Shown: in pieces, positions 4,030 to 20,231 of the stretch
Numbering within the stretch: position 1 is the first letter of the stretch
How the letters are laid out: every line of letters begins with the position of its first letter
Assembly (NCBI GenBank): GCA_016176845.1
Contig: JACOWJ010000032.1
Location: 1 to 26,231 of the forward strand
Reading direction: 5' to 3'
DNA from: Nitrospinota bacterium
GTDB taxonomy: Bacteria > 2-12-FULL-45-22 > JACOWJ01
Length of the DNA stretch: 26,231 nt
Notes under the pieces: generated by a model
Told to the model about the DNA's origin: nothing
Database searches by the model: none
The model's input: the letters and a program-made list of their open reading frames with translations, nothing else
Position numbers and translations under genes: made by a program

Positions 4030-4056
4030 CGGGGTGAGAGAAGGAGGGGGGCTAGG

Positions 4057-4132
4057 ATTGAAAATTGAAAATTGAAAGATGATTCCAGAGGGATTGCAGG
4101 GAGGGAGGTACAGGATTGGAAATTGGAAATTG
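4057..4132 (+). repeat. Heptanucleotide repeats ATTGAAA x3 and ATTGGAA x2
   Basis: ATTGAAA is repeated three times (4057-4077). After a GC-rich interval, ATTGGAA occurs twice plus ATTG (4115-4132). Each run is followed by related text ('GATTCCAGAGGGATTGCAGG' and 'GATTCGAGGGAGATTGCAGG'), so the whole 55-60-bp unit looks imperfectly duplicated. It fills the gap between the galT-like gene and pncB; the end of the second unit gives pncB its ribosome site. Confidence 0.8.
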
Positions 4133-4160
4133 ATTCGAGGGAGATTGCAGGGAGAAGGGG

Positions 4161-13856: not shown

Positions 13857-13922
13857 GATAAACCCTTGAGCATATTCGAGCAGGTTTTGGTTAAGGGCTT
13901 CATAGAGGAAGAGGTCATTCCC

Positions 13923-15404
13923 ATGGATTTCTCCGTATCCTGGACGGCCAGGGAGAATCGGCAGGAGGTGCGCCCTTCCATCCTAAAAGGGACATGGTAC
14001 CCAGCCACCGCCCAGTCCCTGGGTAGTCAAGTGGATACCTTACTACAGGAGGCCAAACCCATCAATTTGCGGGGGGCACTCCTGGCCCTTATCTCTCCCC
14101 ATGCCGGCTACATCTACTCAGGCCGATGCGCAGCCCATGCTTACCGGGCCTTAATTGGCCGGAGCTATCGGCGGGTGATCGTCCTGGCTCCCAGCCATTA
14201 CGGGGATTTTCGAGGCGTTTCGGCCCTGCCGGTCTCGCATTATGAGACCCCCCTGGGCCTGGTGGAGGTAGACCAAGAGGCCGTCAAATCGTTGCGTGCT
14301 CATCCCCTGATCGAAACGCAGGTGGAGGCCGACCTCAAGGAGCACTCACTGGAGATCCAGTTGCCCTTTCTCCAGCGATCCTTACAGGGCTTCAAGCTGG
14401 TACCCCTCCTGGTCGGGCAGCTGGCGGCGGAGGACTACCCTGCCCTGGCCCAAGAGGTTCAACACCAGGTGGATGATCACACGCTCCTGATCGCCAGCTC
14501 AGACTTTACTCACTATGGGCCTCGATTTGGCTATCTTCCCTTCGAGAGCGAGGTCCCGTACCGGATCCGTACTCTGGATTCCCATGCCTTGGCGCGGATC
14601 GAGGAATTGGACCCCCATGGCTTCCTGGGCTACGTGGCCAGTACGGGCTCCACCATCTGCGGCTTTCGGCCCATCGCCCTCCTGCTGCACACTTTGCCGG
14701 AGGATGCCCACGGACAGCTGATGGACTATTATACTTCCGGAGAGATTAGCGGGGACTATCGCAACGCGGTGAGTTACGCCTCGCTCGCCTTCACTCGCGA
14801 CCCGGAGCTATTGGATCGGGAAGAGAAGAGGACCTTGCTCTCCATTGCCCGTGACACGATGGAGCTCTATCTGAGGACCGGCATGGTGCTGGAAGCCGAG
14901 TTCAGTCAATATCCCTTGACAGACAAGATTCAAAGGAAACAGGGGGCCTTCGTAACCCTGGAGAAAGATGGAAGGCTCCGGGGATGCATCGGCAACGTCC
15001 TGCCCATCAAGCCCCTTCATGAGACAGTAAGGGACAATGCGATCAATGCCGCCGCGCGCGATCCCCGTTTCCCGGCCATGACGATCGATGAGGCATCCCA
15101 AGTGACCCTGGAAGTCTCGGTCCTGAGCCCTTTGAAGAGGACCACGGCTTATCGGGAGATCCGAGTTGGCCGGCATGGCATGCTCATTAAAAAGGGGCCT
15201 CATAGCGGCTTGCTTCTTCCCCGGGTAGCCGCCGAGCGGCATTGGGACCTCCAAACCTTCCTGGAAAACACTTGCTTGAAGGCAGGGCTCCAACCCCACG
15301 ATTGGAGGGAGGGCGCCGAGATCTATATCTTTACCGCCCAGGCCTTCTCCGAAAAGAATGCCTCGACAGGTGCCCCTCCGTTTCAGGGGCTGGCCTCTCG
15401 TTGA
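13923..15404 (+). CDS. amrBA: AmmeMemoRadiSam AmrB-AmrA fusion (Memo + AMMECR1 domains)
   Basis: A 493-residue fusion. The N-terminal Memo-like domain (about 1-285) begins 'VRPSILKGTWYP' and keeps the three pocket residues of the family: H60 ('SPHAGYIYSG'), H92 ('APSHYGDF') and C246 ('TICGFRPI'). The spacing H60-H92 equals that of human MEMO1 H49-H81. The C-terminal AMMECR1 domain (about 305-475) contains 'RKQGAFVTLEKDGRLRGCIGN' with C355, 'NAINAAARDPRFPAM' and 'LEVSVLSPL'. ATG 13923 is preferred over TTG 13866 because AGAGGAAGAGG stands just upstream and the family start aligns there. These two domains and AmrS are the name-giving triad; AmrS is at 5321-6340. The biochemical role of the triad is unknown to me; Memo resembles non-heme iron dioxygenases in fold. 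Confidence 0.93.
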   Translation: MDFSVSWTARENRQEVRPSILKGTWYPATAQSLGSQVDTLLQEAKPINLRGALLALISPHAGYIYSGRCAAHAYRALIGRSYRRVIVLAPSHYGDFRGVSALPVSHYETPLGLVEVDQEAVKSLRAHPLIETQVEADLKEHSLEIQLPFLQRSLQGFKLVPLLVGQLAAEDYPALAQEVQHQVDDHTLLIASSDFTHYGPRFGYLPFESEVPYRIRTLDSHALARIEELDPHGFLGYVASTGSTICGFRPIALLLHTLPEDAHGQLMDYYTSGEISGDYRNAVSYASLAFTRDPELLDREEKRTLLSIARDTMELYLRTGMVLEAEFSQYPLTDKIQRKQGAFVTLEKDGRLRGCIGNVLPIKPLHETVRDNAINAAARDPRFPAMTIDEASQVTLEVSVLSPLKRTTAYREIRVGRHGMLIKKGPHSGLLLPRVAAERHWDLQTFLENTCLKAGLQPHDWREGAEIYIFTAQAFSEKNASTGAPPFQGLASR

Positions 15405-15614: not shown

Positions 15615-16769
15615 ATGCAGATGGAAAAGATCATCGAACAGTGTCGAGAATCCGTCGAGGACTTCGCGTTCTCGGAGGCTAAGCGATGGAAAGAGCAACA
15701 CCCGGGAGGAAAGGTAATCGGCTATTTTCCGGTCTATACGCCCGTGGAGATCATTCATGCCGCGGGCATGCTCCCGGTGGCCGTCTATGGGGCGGGCAAC
15801 CGGATCGAGGTCAAGCAGGCCGACTCGCGCCTCCCTTCCTTCATCTGCTCCATCCCCCGGACCACGGTGGAGATGGCCTTCCGGGGAATGTGGGACTTCC
15901 TGGACCTGATGCTCTTCCATCCTATCTGCGACGTGGCCCGCAACCTGGTCCAGATCTGGCACCGTAACTTCTCTCACGTGCCCACCGACCTCCTCTACCT
16001 GCCCCAGAACCTGGTCAGTCGTCGCTCTGGGGAGTACCTCTGCGATGAATACGCTCGGTTCAAACGGCTCTTGGAGGAGCTTTCCGGAAAGCAAATCTCC
16101 CCGGAATCCCTCCGCCACAGCCTCCAGCTTTACAACCGCCAGCGCGCCCTTATCCGGCGGCTCTACGAGATCCGAAGGCATTCTCCCTGGCTGATCTCTG
16201 CCGCCGATACCTATGCCCTGCTCCGGGTGGGGACCCGAATCCCGGTGGAGGAGCACCTGGGCATGCTGGAGGCGGTCCTGGCCGAGCTGCCGGGGCGAAA
16301 GGCCAAGCCCCTGGACAAGATCCGGGTGGTCTTCGAGGGAAGCTTCTGCGAGCAGCCTCCCCTGGAGTTCATCGAGGTGATCGAGGACGTCTGCGATATC
16401 GTGGAGGACGACTTTATCATGGCCAGCCGCTGGATTACGGGCCCCGTCCCCGAGGAAGGGGATCCCTTGAGGGCCCTGGCCTTGAGCTACCGAGATCTCT
16501 TCTCCTACTCCTCCATTCAGCACGACGGCCGCCGCTCCAAGTCCCCAGGGCTGCTGGAGAAGTGCCGCCGGTCTGGGGCCCAGGCGGTCATCCTTTCTCC
16601 TCCCAAGTTCTGCGAGCCGGGCCTGGACGACCAGGTCCTCTTCGCCCAGGCGCTGCAGCAGGAGGGTATTCCCTACCTGGCCATGGAGTTCGAGGAGAAG
16701 ATGACCACCTTCGAGCCCGTGCGGCTCCAGGTGGAGACCTTTGCCGAGTCCTTGTTGTTTTATGCCTGA
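15615..16769 (+). CDS. 2-Hydroxyacyl-CoA dehydratase / benzoyl-CoA reductase D-type subunit (HgdB/BcrC-like)
   Basis: A 384-residue member of the 2-hydroxyglutaryl-CoA dehydratase D-component family (HgdB, FldC, BcrB/C). These proteins hold a [4Fe-4S] cluster that passes one electron, activated by an ATP-dependent partner, to an acyl-CoA. Visible marks are 'YFPVYTPVEIIHAAGMLPV' and three conserved cysteines as cluster ligands: C78 ('FICSIPRTT'), C105 ('HPICDVARN') and C333 ('KFCEPG'). 'VEDDFIMASRW' is also typical. The start ATG 15615 follows GAGGAG. Family enzymes need a second D-type subunit and an ATPase activator (HgdC/BcrA-D type); neither is in the window. It is followed after 114 bp by the acyl-CoA mutase, suggesting one pathway. 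Substrate unknown; benzoyl-CoA reductase subunit C is the closest impression, by eye only. Confidence 0.85.
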   Translation: MQMEKIIEQCRESVEDFAFSEAKRWKEQHPGGKVIGYFPVYTPVEIIHAAGMLPVAVYGAGNRIEVKQADSRLPSFICSIPRTTVEMAFRGMWDFLDLMLFHPICDVARNLVQIWHRNFSHVPTDLLYLPQNLVSRRSGEYLCDEYARFKRLLEELSGKQISPESLRHSLQLYNRQRALIRRLYEIRRHSPWLISAADTYALLRVGTRIPVEEHLGMLEAVLAELPGRKAKPLDKIRVVFEGSFCEQPPLEFIEVIEDVCDIVEDDFIMASRWITGPVPEEGDPLRALALSYRDLFSYSSIQHDGRRSKSPGLLEKCRRSGAQAVILSPPKFCEPGLDDQVLFAQALQQEGIPYLAMEFEEKMTTFEPVRLQVETFAESLLFYA

Positions 16770-16883: not shown

Positions 16884-18548
16884 ATGGATCAAGACAAGCA
16901 CGATGAATGGAAGAGGGAATACGAGAAAGTGACAGAGAGACAGCCCGAAAGGCGCTCGAAGTTTGAGACCTCCTCGGGCATCCCCCTCAAGCCCCTTTAC
17001 ACCCCTCAAGACCTCGAGGGGTTGGAGTACGATCGAGACCTGGGCAACCCCTGCCAGTATCCCTTCTCCAGGGGGATCTACCCCACCATGTATCGCACCC
17101 AACTGTGGACCAAGCGGATGCTGGTCGGACATGAGACCCCGGAGATCTTCAACGTCCGGCAGAAGCGGATGCTCGAAGTGGGGACCACGGGGATCAACCT
17201 GATCCCCTGCAACTCCTTCATGCGGGGCTGCGATTCCGACGAGGCGGAAGTGGAACTGCTGGGCCGCTGTGGGACTACCATCGACTCCCTCCAGGATATG
17301 GAGATGGCCTTAAAGGATATCCCCTTGGATCAGGTAACCCTGGGTCTAAACGATCCAGGGCCCTTCATCATGCTGGCCATGTGCATCGCCAGCGCCGAGA
17401 AGCAGGGAATCTCCCGGGAGCGATTGCGGGGGACTTCCAACCAGTCGGATTTCATCTCCCACTACATCGGCTGCAACATGTTCTTCCGTTTCCCTTTGGA
17501 GGGACACCTGCGCATGCTGATGGACCACATTACCTTCTGCCATCAGTACCTGCCCCAATGGAACTGCCTGAGCATCGTGGGGCAGCACGTCCAGCAAGGG
17601 GGGGCTACGCCGGTTCAGGCGTTGGGCTTCACCCTGGCCAGCGGGATCTTTTACGTAGAGGAAGGGCTGAAAGCAGGGCTGAAGGCGGAGGAGCTCGTCC
17701 CCCGGTTCACCTTCTTCTTCGACGCGAGCAGTCAGTTCTTCGAGGAGATCGCCAAGTTCCGGGCCGCCCGTAGGATGTGGGCCAGGATCCTCCGGGAGCG
17801 CTTCGGGATCCAAGACCCCCGGGCACTGCGGCTCAAGTTCCACGCCCAGACCTCGGGAGCCGAGCTCACCGCGGCCCAGCCCCTGAACAACATTGCCAGG
17901 GTGACCCTCCAGGCCCTGGCCGCCATCCTGGGGGGAGTCCAATCCCTCCATACCGATGCTTACGACGAGGCGCTCTGGTCTCCCACGGAGGAAGCGGCCC
18001 GCATCGCCCTCATGACCCAGAACATCCTGGCCGAAGAGACCGGCGTGGCCGATGTCATCGACCCCTTAGGGGGATCTTACTTCCTGGAGACGCTCACCCA
18101 AGAGGTGGAGGAACGGGCCTGGCAGATCATCGCCAAGATCGACGAACTGGGGGGGATGTACCAGGCCGTTAAGAGGGGCTACCCGCAGAAAGAGATCGCC
18201 CGGTCCGCTTACGAGCAACAACAGCGGACAGAGAGCGGGGAGAAGGTCATCGTGGGAGTCAACAAGTATATAGCCTTCGAAGAGGATGGCCGGACCTCTT
18301 CTCCTCCTCCGGAAGTGAGGCATGACCTCATCGCGAAGCAGATCGCCAGAACGCGGAGGCTAAAGAAAGAGCGGGACCAAACGAGGACCCGGGAGGCCCT
18401 GGAGCGGTTGAAAGAGGTGGCCCACGGTCAGCAGGGGAACCTTTTTGCCGCCGTGATCGAAGCGGTCAAGGCCCAGGCCACCCAGGGAGAGATCACCCGG
18501 ACCTTACGAGAGGTCTACGGCTTCGGCAGGCCCCTGCTCACCTCGTGA
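16884..18548 (+). CDS. B12-dependent acyl-CoA mutase large subunit, MCM-like with altered substrate pocket
   Basis: A 554-residue homologue of the methylmalonyl-CoA mutase catalytic (TIM-barrel) domain, e.g. 'YPFSRGIYPTMYRTQLWT', 'FEEIAKFRAARRMWARIL', 'KFHAQTSGAELTAAQPLNNI', 'QSLHTDAYDEAL', 'VADVIDPLGGSYFLE'. It ends without the B12-binding domain (no DxHxxG...SxL...GG), so a separate small subunit must supply cobalamin; none is in the window. Residues that fix substrate in MCM are changed. The position of Tyr89 (RQYAGF) is L80 ('RMLVGH'), the usual 'AFDLPT' loop reads 'LIPCNSF', and the carboxylate-binding Arg207 position appears to be N198. The catalytic His is kept (H235, 'SIVGQHVQQGGAT'). 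It therefore probably isomerises another acyl-CoA. ATG 16884, with AAAGGAAG before it. Confidence 0.88.
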   Translation: MDQDKHDEWKREYEKVTERQPERRSKFETSSGIPLKPLYTPQDLEGLEYDRDLGNPCQYPFSRGIYPTMYRTQLWTKRMLVGHETPEIFNVRQKRMLEVGTTGINLIPCNSFMRGCDSDEAEVELLGRCGTTIDSLQDMEMALKDIPLDQVTLGLNDPGPFIMLAMCIASAEKQGISRERLRGTSNQSDFISHYIGCNMFFRFPLEGHLRMLMDHITFCHQYLPQWNCLSIVGQHVQQGGATPVQALGFTLASGIFYVEEGLKAGLKAEELVPRFTFFFDASSQFFEEIAKFRAARRMWARILRERFGIQDPRALRLKFHAQTSGAELTAAQPLNNIARVTLQALAAILGGVQSLHTDAYDEALWSPTEEAARIALMTQNILAEETGVADVIDPLGGSYFLETLTQEVEERAWQIIAKIDELGGMYQAVKRGYPQKEIARSAYEQQQRTESGEKVIVGVNKYIAFEEDGRTSSPPPEVRHDLIAKQIARTRRLKKERDQTRTREALERLKEVAHGQQGNLFAAVIEAVKAQATQGEITRTLREVYGFGRPLLTS

Positions 18549-18549
18549 G

Positions 18550-18588
18550 AATTGGAAGTGGGAAATTTAAAATTTCCCACTTCCAATT
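18550..18588. repeat. Perfect 18-bp-stem heptad palindrome between convergent genes
   Basis: AATTGGAAGTGGGAAATT (18550-18567), loop TAA, then its exact complement (18571-18588), starting two bases after the mutase stop. The right arm continues as ATTTCCA/ATTG with the 7-bp period seen elsewhere in the window. The stem is long enough to be a bidirectional transcript end for the convergent pair, although there is no classic U-run. The stop of the minus-strand glycosyltransferase frame lies inside it. Confidence 0.8.
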
Positions 18589-20231
18589 TCCAATTGATAT
18601 AGGGTAAGACAACAATCTGAAGGATCGAGGAGGGGATCGCGGGAAAAGGTCCGGATGGGAACCACCCGGAATGGCGGAGCCTGGATTGCCGAATTCTGCG
18701 ATTTCCCATCTTTCTTTAATTTCCCATTTCCCATTTCCCATTTCCCATTTCCCATTCTTTGCCCTCCTGCCTCTCCCGCCATGGTCAGAAAAATCTGCTG
18801 GGGAGACATGAGGGCGAGAAGGGGATCGGACCACAGCTCGCTCATCCCACGGATCCGTTTGGAGGGCAGCCGAGGACGATAATACTCGAAGAGCCGCTGC
18901 TCCTCCCCGCCGTACAGGAGAGAATCGCCCCCTGGATAGCTGTCGTGCAAGAAATCTAGGACTTGGAGGGCCAGGGGGGGCGTAGTTTGTTGCCGGCGGA
19001 CCAGGTCGAGCGAGAGGGAAAGGGAAGAGCCCAGGAAGAGGGCCAGCAAGGCGCGAGAGAGGAACCTCCCATGGAGGGAAGAGACGCGATCCAGCAGCGA
19101 GATCAGGCCGCGGGCGACGCCTGGCAGCATGAGCAGGACCAGGATCAGGACGTGGCGAGGGCGGGAGAGGTTCTGGGCCAGGCAGATCCAGAGGAAGTAG
19201 GGAATAATGCCGGCCAGGAGGAAGCGATCCGCCCGAGACGAATGATCCTTTCCCCATGCCCAGCAGAGGAGGCCCAAGGCGATCCCACAGGAAGGCAGGA
19301 GCCTCCAGGGAGAGGCGCCCGGCCCATAAAAGCCCAGACCATGGAGGAACAGGGCGGAGAGCAGGGCATGCATCCGGCCCAAGGGATAGGGCTCGATCCA
19401 GGCGGTCCCGCCCCAGGATTGGAAATGACCCGCCGTGAACCTCAACCCCTCGGCCAGGAGGGGCTCTCCCCCAAGCTGGACCCTCTGCCAGAGAAGCCAG
19501 AGGGAGCAAACGACCAGGAAAGAGAATACGGTCAGGATCGCTTCGATCCATTTTCCCCTTCCCGAGGATCGCTCTCGGAGGATCTGTCCCTCGAGGATCG
19601 CACCCGTCAGCAAGAAAGGGAAATAGGAAGGCCGGGTTCCCAGAGCCAGGGCCAGGGCGACCCCTGCAGCCGGCCCGGCATACGGGCGGGGAGCATAGGA
19701 GAAAAGGCAGAGGGCTGTGAGGATAAAAAAGGAGCCCGTCACATCGGAGAGGGCCCGCTCGCTCAGCAGCCAATGGAGCGGGTTGAAGATCAGAAGAAGG
19801 GAGGAGAGCAGGGCCACGCGGCGGCCATAAAGCCGATCAGCCAGGAGGAAAAGGGGAAGGGCGGTCATCCCCCCCAGGAGGGCATTGACAGCGGTCAGGG
19901 CGGAGCCCTCCTCTCCCAGCCAGGGCCAGAGAAGTCGCGCCAGTCCGAGGTAGACGGGATAGCCGGGGAAATGGGGCTGATACTCCGAGAGGGAGTAGCG
20001 CCTCAGGCCCAGGGCAAAGTCCACCTCATCCCAGGAGCCCAGCCAGGGGACCCGCAGGGGGAGCCTCAGCGCCAGGGAGCTCGCGGCCAGCAGGAGCCCA
20101 ACCCCAAAAGGTTTATAGGCGCGAAAAGCCGTACCAACCTCCGCGAGTGGTTCGCTTTTTACCAGGCCACCACCGCCTGCCCGGCCAGCAGGTTGTTGTC
20201 CACGTCCTTTTGTCCCTGCTCCCGGTTCCAT
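18567..20231 (-). CDS. Polytopic glycosyltransferase-like membrane protein (GT39/PMT type)
   Basis: A 554-residue integral membrane protein with about ten hydrophobic helices. Its first loop contains 'LGSWDEVDFALGLRRY', which resembles the acidic catalytic loop of lipid-phosphate-sugar-dependent mannosyl/arabinosyltransferases (GT39/GT83). 'FPGYPVYLGLARL' and 'LSERALSDVTGSFFILTA' also fit. The donor and acceptor cannot be read. The start ATG 20231 lies inside the porin gene (73-bp out-of-frame overlap) but has GGTGGAG four bases upstream, and no other usual start exists before the first helix. The last 62 residues ('MGNGKWEMGNGK' onward) are encoded by heptanucleotide repeats and the 18550-18588 palindrome, so the original protein probably ended near residue 492 and gained a junk tail. 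Confidence 0.75.
   Translation of the reverse strand: MEPGAGTKGRGQQPAGRAGGGGLVKSEPLAEVGTAFRAYKPFGVGLLLAASSLALRLPLRVPWLGSWDEVDFALGLRRYSLSEYQPHFPGYPVYLGLARLLWPWLGEEGSALTAVNALLGGMTALPLFLLADRLYGRRVALLSSLLLIFNPLHWLLSERALSDVTGSFFILTALCLFSYAPRPYAGPAAGVALALALGTRPSYFPFLLTGAILEGQILRERSSGRGKWIEAILTVFSFLVVCSLWLLWQRVQLGGEPLLAEGLRFTAGHFQSWGGTAWIEPYPLGRMHALLSALFLHGLGFYGPGASPWRLLPSCGIALGLLCWAWGKDHSSRADRFLLAGIIPYFLWICLAQNLSRPRHVLILVLLMLPGVARGLISLLDRVSSLHGRFLSRALLALFLGSSLSLSLDLVRRQQTTPPLALQVLDFLHDSYPGGDSLLYGGEEQRLFEYYRPRLPSKRIRGMSELWSDPLLALMSPQQIFLTMAGEAGGQRMGNGKWEMGNGKLKKDGKSQNSAIQAPPFRVVPIRTFSRDPLLDPSDCCLTLYQLEIGSGKF
18719..18753. repeat. Heptanucleotide tandem repeat ATTTCCC x5
   Basis: Five uninterrupted copies of ATTTCCC. 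The array is read by the glycosyltransferase-like gene on the minus strand. Three copies (21 bp) equal seven codons, so it yields a 7-residue period (GNGKWEM) in the protein tail. The complement GGGAAAT matches the arms of the 18550-18588 palindrome, so the two are probably parts of one repeat system. Confidence 0.9.

Follow-up and report, generated by a model that had tools for sequence, protein, structure and literature searches.

The locus described here raises two questions, one of substrate and one of class. The 26,231 nucleotides that were analysed (the window, hereafter) encode a protein, P0001, that a preliminary description had placed on the methylmalonyl-CoA mutase (MCM) scaffold with a rewritten substrate pocket. 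Which acyl-CoA might such an enzyme rearrange, and does it represent a new class of mutase? We favor, with somewhat better than even confidence, the reading that P0001 is the large subunit of a rare heteromeric AdoCbl mutase whose partner is encoded on another contig (C58) of the same genome, and that its reaction, as a best guess from sequence, is the interconversion of pivalyl-CoA and isovaleryl-CoA or of a close quaternary-carbon homologue. Family, pocket, clade, partner phylogeny and the operon context of relatives were computed here, and from these we infer activity, pairing and substrate.

The frame of P0001 is intact. In a Pfam scan the protein covers PF01642 from position 1 to 512 of 512 (E 7e-179, 596 bits), and its TIGR00641 match of 561 bits lies above the cut-off; the MCM-type scaffold is thus upheld. 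In a PDB search it scores highest with HcmA of 2-hydroxyisobutyryl-CoA mutase (4r3u, 454 bits); human MCM reaches 376 bits and P. shermanii MCM 323 bits. The Pfam scan did not find the B12 domain PF02310 in P0001. This absence had been pointed out before, but it is ordinary for two-component mutases, and HcmA is likewise a separate large subunit. An AlphaFold model of P0001 (mean pLDDT 70.6, from a shallow alignment, with residues 35-81 below 50) confirms the fold, though it is too weak to bear on the shape of the substrate. No cobalamin riboswitch was found in an Rfam scan.

The pocket departs from that of MCM at many positions (MCM numbering is that of P. shermanii; Table). Catalytic His235 aligns with His244, and Gln187 and Glu362 retain Gln197 and Glu370. 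In contrast, Tyr89 is replaced by Leu80, and the loop Ala116, Phe117, Asp118, Leu119, Pro120, Thr121 by Ile107, Pro108, Cys109, Asn110, Ser111, Phe112 (IPCNSF for AFDLPT). The conserved His, Leu80 and the rewritten loop had all been recognized in the preliminary description, and the alignment agrees with it. Further changes are new to this analysis: Ala139 is Cys129, Tyr243 is Gln234, Glu247 is Gln238, and the TMNGAV-type loop reads NDPGPF. One assignment has to be moved by a single residue. Asn198, formerly set at MCM Arg207, corresponds to Asn208, and Cys197 occupies position 207. The stretch is flanked by one-residue insertions, N186 and R202, that are specific to the P0001 clade; gaps at these points keep Gln197 opposite Gln187 and the next Asp opposite Asp189, which places Cys197 at Arg207. 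P0001 therefore has Leu80 and Cys197 where MCM has its carboxylate clamp, Tyr89 and Arg207. It has Leu80 and Ile107 where HcmA-type enzymes have Ile90 and Asp117, and the ICM-type pair Phe89 and Gln207 is absent as well.

Table. Features of the mutase locus and of the predicted partner gene. Positions refer to the window, except for the C58 gene.
Feature	Position	Strand	Evidence
Mutase large (substrate-binding TIM-barrel) subunit, two-component AdoCbl type	16884..18548	+	554 aa; PF01642, TIGR00641
Leu80 codon, at MCM Tyr89	17121..17123	+	alignment
I107-P108-C109-N110-S111-F112 codons, at MCM A116-F117-D118-L119-P120-T121	17202..17219	+	alignment
Cys197 codon, at MCM Arg207	17472..17474	+	alignment
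Gln234 (MCM Tyr243) and catalytic His235 (MCM His244) codons	17583..17588	+	alignment
HGD-D family gene, BcrC/MbdN-like	15615..16769	+	PF06050 240 bits; MbdN 9g87_B 338 bits
Near-perfect palindrome, 77 nt	16786..16862		fold -35.8 kcal/mol, z -5.2
B12-binding small subunit on contig C58	L095 4391-4801	-	PF02310 75 bits, DAHDRG motif

As in other members of the family, catalysis would begin with homolysis of the Co-C bond to give a 5'-deoxyadenosyl radical. This radical would strip the acyl-CoA of a hydrogen, and a 1,2-shift would carry the CoA-thioester carbonyl to the adjacent carbon. In MCM, Tyr89 and Arg207 hold the substrate carboxylate; in HCM, Asp117 of HcmA holds the substrate hydroxyl. 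Loss of all three equivalents suggests that P0001 probably binds a branched aliphatic acyl group that carries no charge. Of the earlier expectation of a new acyl-CoA substrate, what holds up is that a non-carboxylate acyl-CoA is likely.

Two close relatives of P0001 occur in MAGs, one from the same order (G001, 67% alignment identity) and one at 53% (G033). Members scored 1082-1132 bits against a profile built from these three proteins, and everything else in 386 genomes scored 638 bits or less; an eight-row profile searched against 385 genomes, a set overlapping the first, matched the G001 and G033 members alone. Relatives from genome contigs were rejected as a source for the clade, being all of MCM type, and the informative ones came from plasmid records. 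There, tblastn returned proteobacterial proteins with the same signature, 46-51% identical to P0001, from Diaphorobacter HDW4B, Sphingobium YC-XJ3 (two copies), Sulfitobacter BSw21498, Pseudosulfitobacter, Roseovarius THAF8 and Xanthobacter autotrophicus Py2 (Xaut_5043). All seven are annotated "acyl-CoA mutase large subunit family".

In a maximum-likelihood tree, P0001, the two MAG proteins and the seven proteobacterial proteins form one clade (100/100), in which the other members are 45-67% identical to P0001. MCM, ECM, ICM-like rows with F89/Q207, and HcmA with Xaut_5021 fall outside it, the last two as a separate group (100/100). The Xaut_5021 cluster (GntR - B12 subunit - ligase - MeaB-type GTPase - large subunit) matches the described HCM operon (PMC7176365). 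The signature of the ten-member clade is L89, a PCN loop, C139, Q243-H244 and Q247 in MCM numbering, with insertions at 186 and 202; the G033 member, with His at position 117, is an exception. In P0001 numbering, L80, C109, Q234, Q238 and the insertions N186 and R202 do not vary within the clade and are seldom met outside it, and Cys109 is found in 0 of the 36 other alignment rows. Sequencing error or gene decay was considered as the origin of the signature and set aside, as ten proteins keep it.

Position 207 varies within the clade: it is Cys in P0001 and G001, Leu in G033, and Asn in the proteobacterial branch alone. P0001 branches below the proteobacterial members, and we do not claim it for their branch, since Asn207 marks that branch and not the whole clade. 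The proposal that the residue combination matches no known group is not supported. P0001 does lie outside MCM, ICM, HCM and ECM, identities that pocket and tree rule out, but seven proteobacterial proteins share its combination. The supposed new class becomes a deep branch of a rare mutase class that probably has a name already.

The two MAGs, G001 and G033, also hold 11 and 18 MCM-like matches (loci L081-L086, L090-L093 and L098). In many of these proteins the His244 position is Asn, Asp, Ala, Ser or Glu; the longest branches could be aligned only with some uncertainty. Several of the genes adjoin a B12 small subunit, and the whole has the look of a radiation of unusual mutases.

The operons of the proteobacterial members provide a lead to the substrate. 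These operons have the order TetR - B12 small subunit - large subunit - MeaB, with acyl-CoA ligases near most and branched-chain ABC transporters near some. In two roseobacters, Sulfitobacter and Pseudosulfitobacter, the operon extends through a thioesterase gene and a TetR gene into a carboxylase-type set: carboxyltransferase, crotonase, biotin carboxylase and acyl-CoA dehydrogenase. The biotin carboxylase has MCC alpha (3u9s) as its top PDB match. The carboxyltransferase scores 589 bits to MCC beta (3u9r) versus 261 bits to 1vrg (labelled PCC beta), though PDB chains labelled acetyl-/propionyl-CoA carboxylase score equally high. The crotonase is above the general family model only, with gamma-carboxygeranoyl-CoA hydratase second, and the acyl-CoA dehydrogenase has no specific likeness to isovaleryl-CoA dehydrogenase. 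A gene run of methylcrotonyl-CoA-carboxylase type resembles an isovaleryl-CoA route, which makes isovaleryl-CoA a plausible product of the mutase and pivalyl-CoA a plausible substrate. By this analogy, the roseobacter gene order points to a pivalyl-CoA/isovaleryl-CoA mutase.

A pivalyl-CoA mutase was reportedly described by Kitanishi, Cracan and Banerjee in 2015 and cloned from X. autotrophicus Py2; we take Xaut_5043/5044 to be that published enzyme. If this is correct, P0001 would largely fall inside a characterised clade with the same pocket residues, a placement that the preliminary description had held to count against a new substrate. The same interconversion of pivalyl-CoA and isovaleryl-CoA is carried out by IcmF (PMC10481361, PMC9974510).

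A two-component mutase needs a small subunit, and a stand-alone B12-binding protein, which the preliminary description had proposed to look for, is indeed encoded in the genome. Two short stand-alone mutase-type B12 domains were found, on contigs C4 and C58. The C58 protein keeps the DxHxxG cobalt-ligand motif, and its best match is G001:C7 (64% over 126 aa). Both fall in one group (99/96) with the operon-encoded small subunits of the proteobacteria, and a one-residue deletion in SSLA[TY]DHL is common to all of them. The C4 protein groups elsewhere and lies about 4 kb from a gene that, by eye, is glyoxalase/methylmalonyl-CoA-epimerase-like. Since the large- and small-subunit lineages agree, we predict that the C58 protein pairs with P0001. 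In neither the window genome nor G001 are the two subunit genes linked. A small subunit of the C58 lineage was not identified in G033, where the nearest (C13, 50%) groups elsewhere. Behind the small-subunit gene on C58 (L095 3479-4801), in the same orientation, come genes for a 4Fe-4S ferredoxin-type protein and for a small protein that is ThiS/MoaD-like by eye and has no Pfam match.

The immediate neighborhood of the mutase gene could suggest a different substrate. Lying 114 bp downstream of the BcrC/MbdN-like gene and on the same strand, it follows a gene of class I benzoyl-CoA-reductase or 2-hydroxyacyl-CoA-dehydratase subunit type. The TIGR02263 score of this neighbor (327 bits) is below the cut-off of 421, and the window contains no BcrB or activator gene. 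Its orthologue in G033 (C302, 51%) keeps cysteines 78, 105 and 333 and is flanked by an acyl-CoA ligase gene on one side and a BcrB-like gene on the other. HGD-D matches are abundant, with 29 in the 68%-complete 1.5 Mb draft genome of P0001, often paired (contigs C36, C8, C14, C19, C38 and C22, for example), and more than 30 in G001, where two such genes adjoin the orthologous small-subunit gene. P0001 could thus be a mutase of the same type that acts on a larger uncharged acyl-CoA, branched or alicyclic, in an anaerobic pathway fed by the genome's benzoyl-CoA-reductase-type enzymes. Position 207 fits this alternative, being Cys or Leu and not Asn. So does the search for downstream genes: neither the 68%-complete genome nor G001 (85%) yielded an MCC-type carboxyltransferase, with matches of 33-35% only, and the roseobacter-type isovaleryl-CoA/leucine route was sought in the former and not found. 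As P0001 is a deep branch with Cys at 207, its substrate may have shifted, and the same Cys together with the absent MCC route leaves room for another one.

Other observations lower the weight of this neighborhood. With HGD-D genes this abundant, one could plausibly come to lie beside a mutase subunit gene by chance. The HGD-D gene at G001:C7 is only 31% identical to the one in the window, and the HGD-D neighbors are not orthologues; next to the gene for the large-subunit orthologue, neither G001 nor G033 has an HGD-D gene. The two window genes are parted by a palindrome that is dispersed through the genome (about 40 places in 1.53 Mb, about 30 of them at 93-100% identity) and is REP- or MITE-like. 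This palindrome and the unlinked orthologues weaken a same-operon reading, and a functional association of mutase and BcrC-like gene is suggestive only. We therefore consider the larger substrate a minority prospect, well behind the pivalyl-CoA type. Equally tentative is the related idea that the three-MAG branch is like the pivalyl-CoA type in appearance only and serves an anaerobic pathway with a new specificity, perhaps for a branched or cyclic acyl-CoA that ring reduction supplies.

Other features of the window deserve brief mention. A second hairpin, with perfect 19-bp arms, just downstream of the mutase gene and intergenic runs of ATTTCCC / GAAAATT-type short repeats were noticed at 18550-18588, 18701-18750 and 4056-4135. 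At 13866-15404, Memo and AMMECR1 domains are fused in one 512-aa protein.

It is improbable that P0001 is a degenerate or non-catalytic mutase homologue. Replacement of Tyr243 and several corrin-side residues, the separation of the two subunit genes and the failure to find MeaB in the 68%-complete draft genome are what one might expect of decay. However, the intact frame, the retention of the altered residues and the catalytic His across such divergent proteins, the complete proteobacterial operons, with small subunit and MeaB, and the cobalt-ligand motif of the C58 protein all argue for a working enzyme. Least credible of all is the reading of P0001 as a plain MCM, ICM or HCM whose sequence has drifted. 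The TIGR00641 score and the HcmA match would allow it, but the substrate-fixing residues differ, the tree places P0001 outside these classes, and a canonical MCM large subunit (Y89/R207) is encoded separately on C17, adjoining carboxylase genes, as is the C4 small subunit with its epimerase-like gene nearby.

The present results place a rare B12 mutase subfamily in a deep-branching, probably anaerobic lineage, and provide markers in the sequence as well as a predicted pair of subunits. Enzymes that move carbon beside a quaternary center are a known way to degrade pivalate-type compounds, and a version from an anaerobe, if true, would indicate how quaternary carbons could be handled without oxygen. 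In short, a pocket outside the textbook classes need not mean a new class.

Among known systems, P0001 most resembles the Xaut_5043-type clade, with which it shares L89, I/L116-P117-C118, C139, Q243-H244, Q247, the insertions N186/R202, a two-component architecture and a cognate small-subunit lineage. Unlike the proteobacterial enzymes of this type, it has Cys197 (Leu in G033) where theirs have Asn at 207, Asn for His at 208 and Gln73 for Arg82, and its subunit genes are unlinked, with a BcrC-like neighbor instead of a TetR-MeaB-ligase operon. HcmA (4r3u; Xaut_5021) is also two-component, 41% identical by alignment and non-Tyr at position 89. It differs in having I90, D117, F-D, Q208 and Y243 where P0001 has L80, I107, P-C, C197 and Q234, and the two belong to separate clades. 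ICM (IcmF, 4xc6/5cjw, and the ICM-like F89/Q207 rows) acts on the uncharged class of acyl-CoA predicted for P0001, but the F89, A116, F117-D118, Q207-K208 and Y243 of the ICM-like rows are not kept. MCM (1req, 2xij, 6oxc) and ethylmalonyl-CoA mutase have in common with P0001 the TIM barrel, His244 and Arg at 87 and 283; in contrast to them, P0001 has lost the carboxylate-binding Tyr89 and Arg207 and carries no fused B12 domain.
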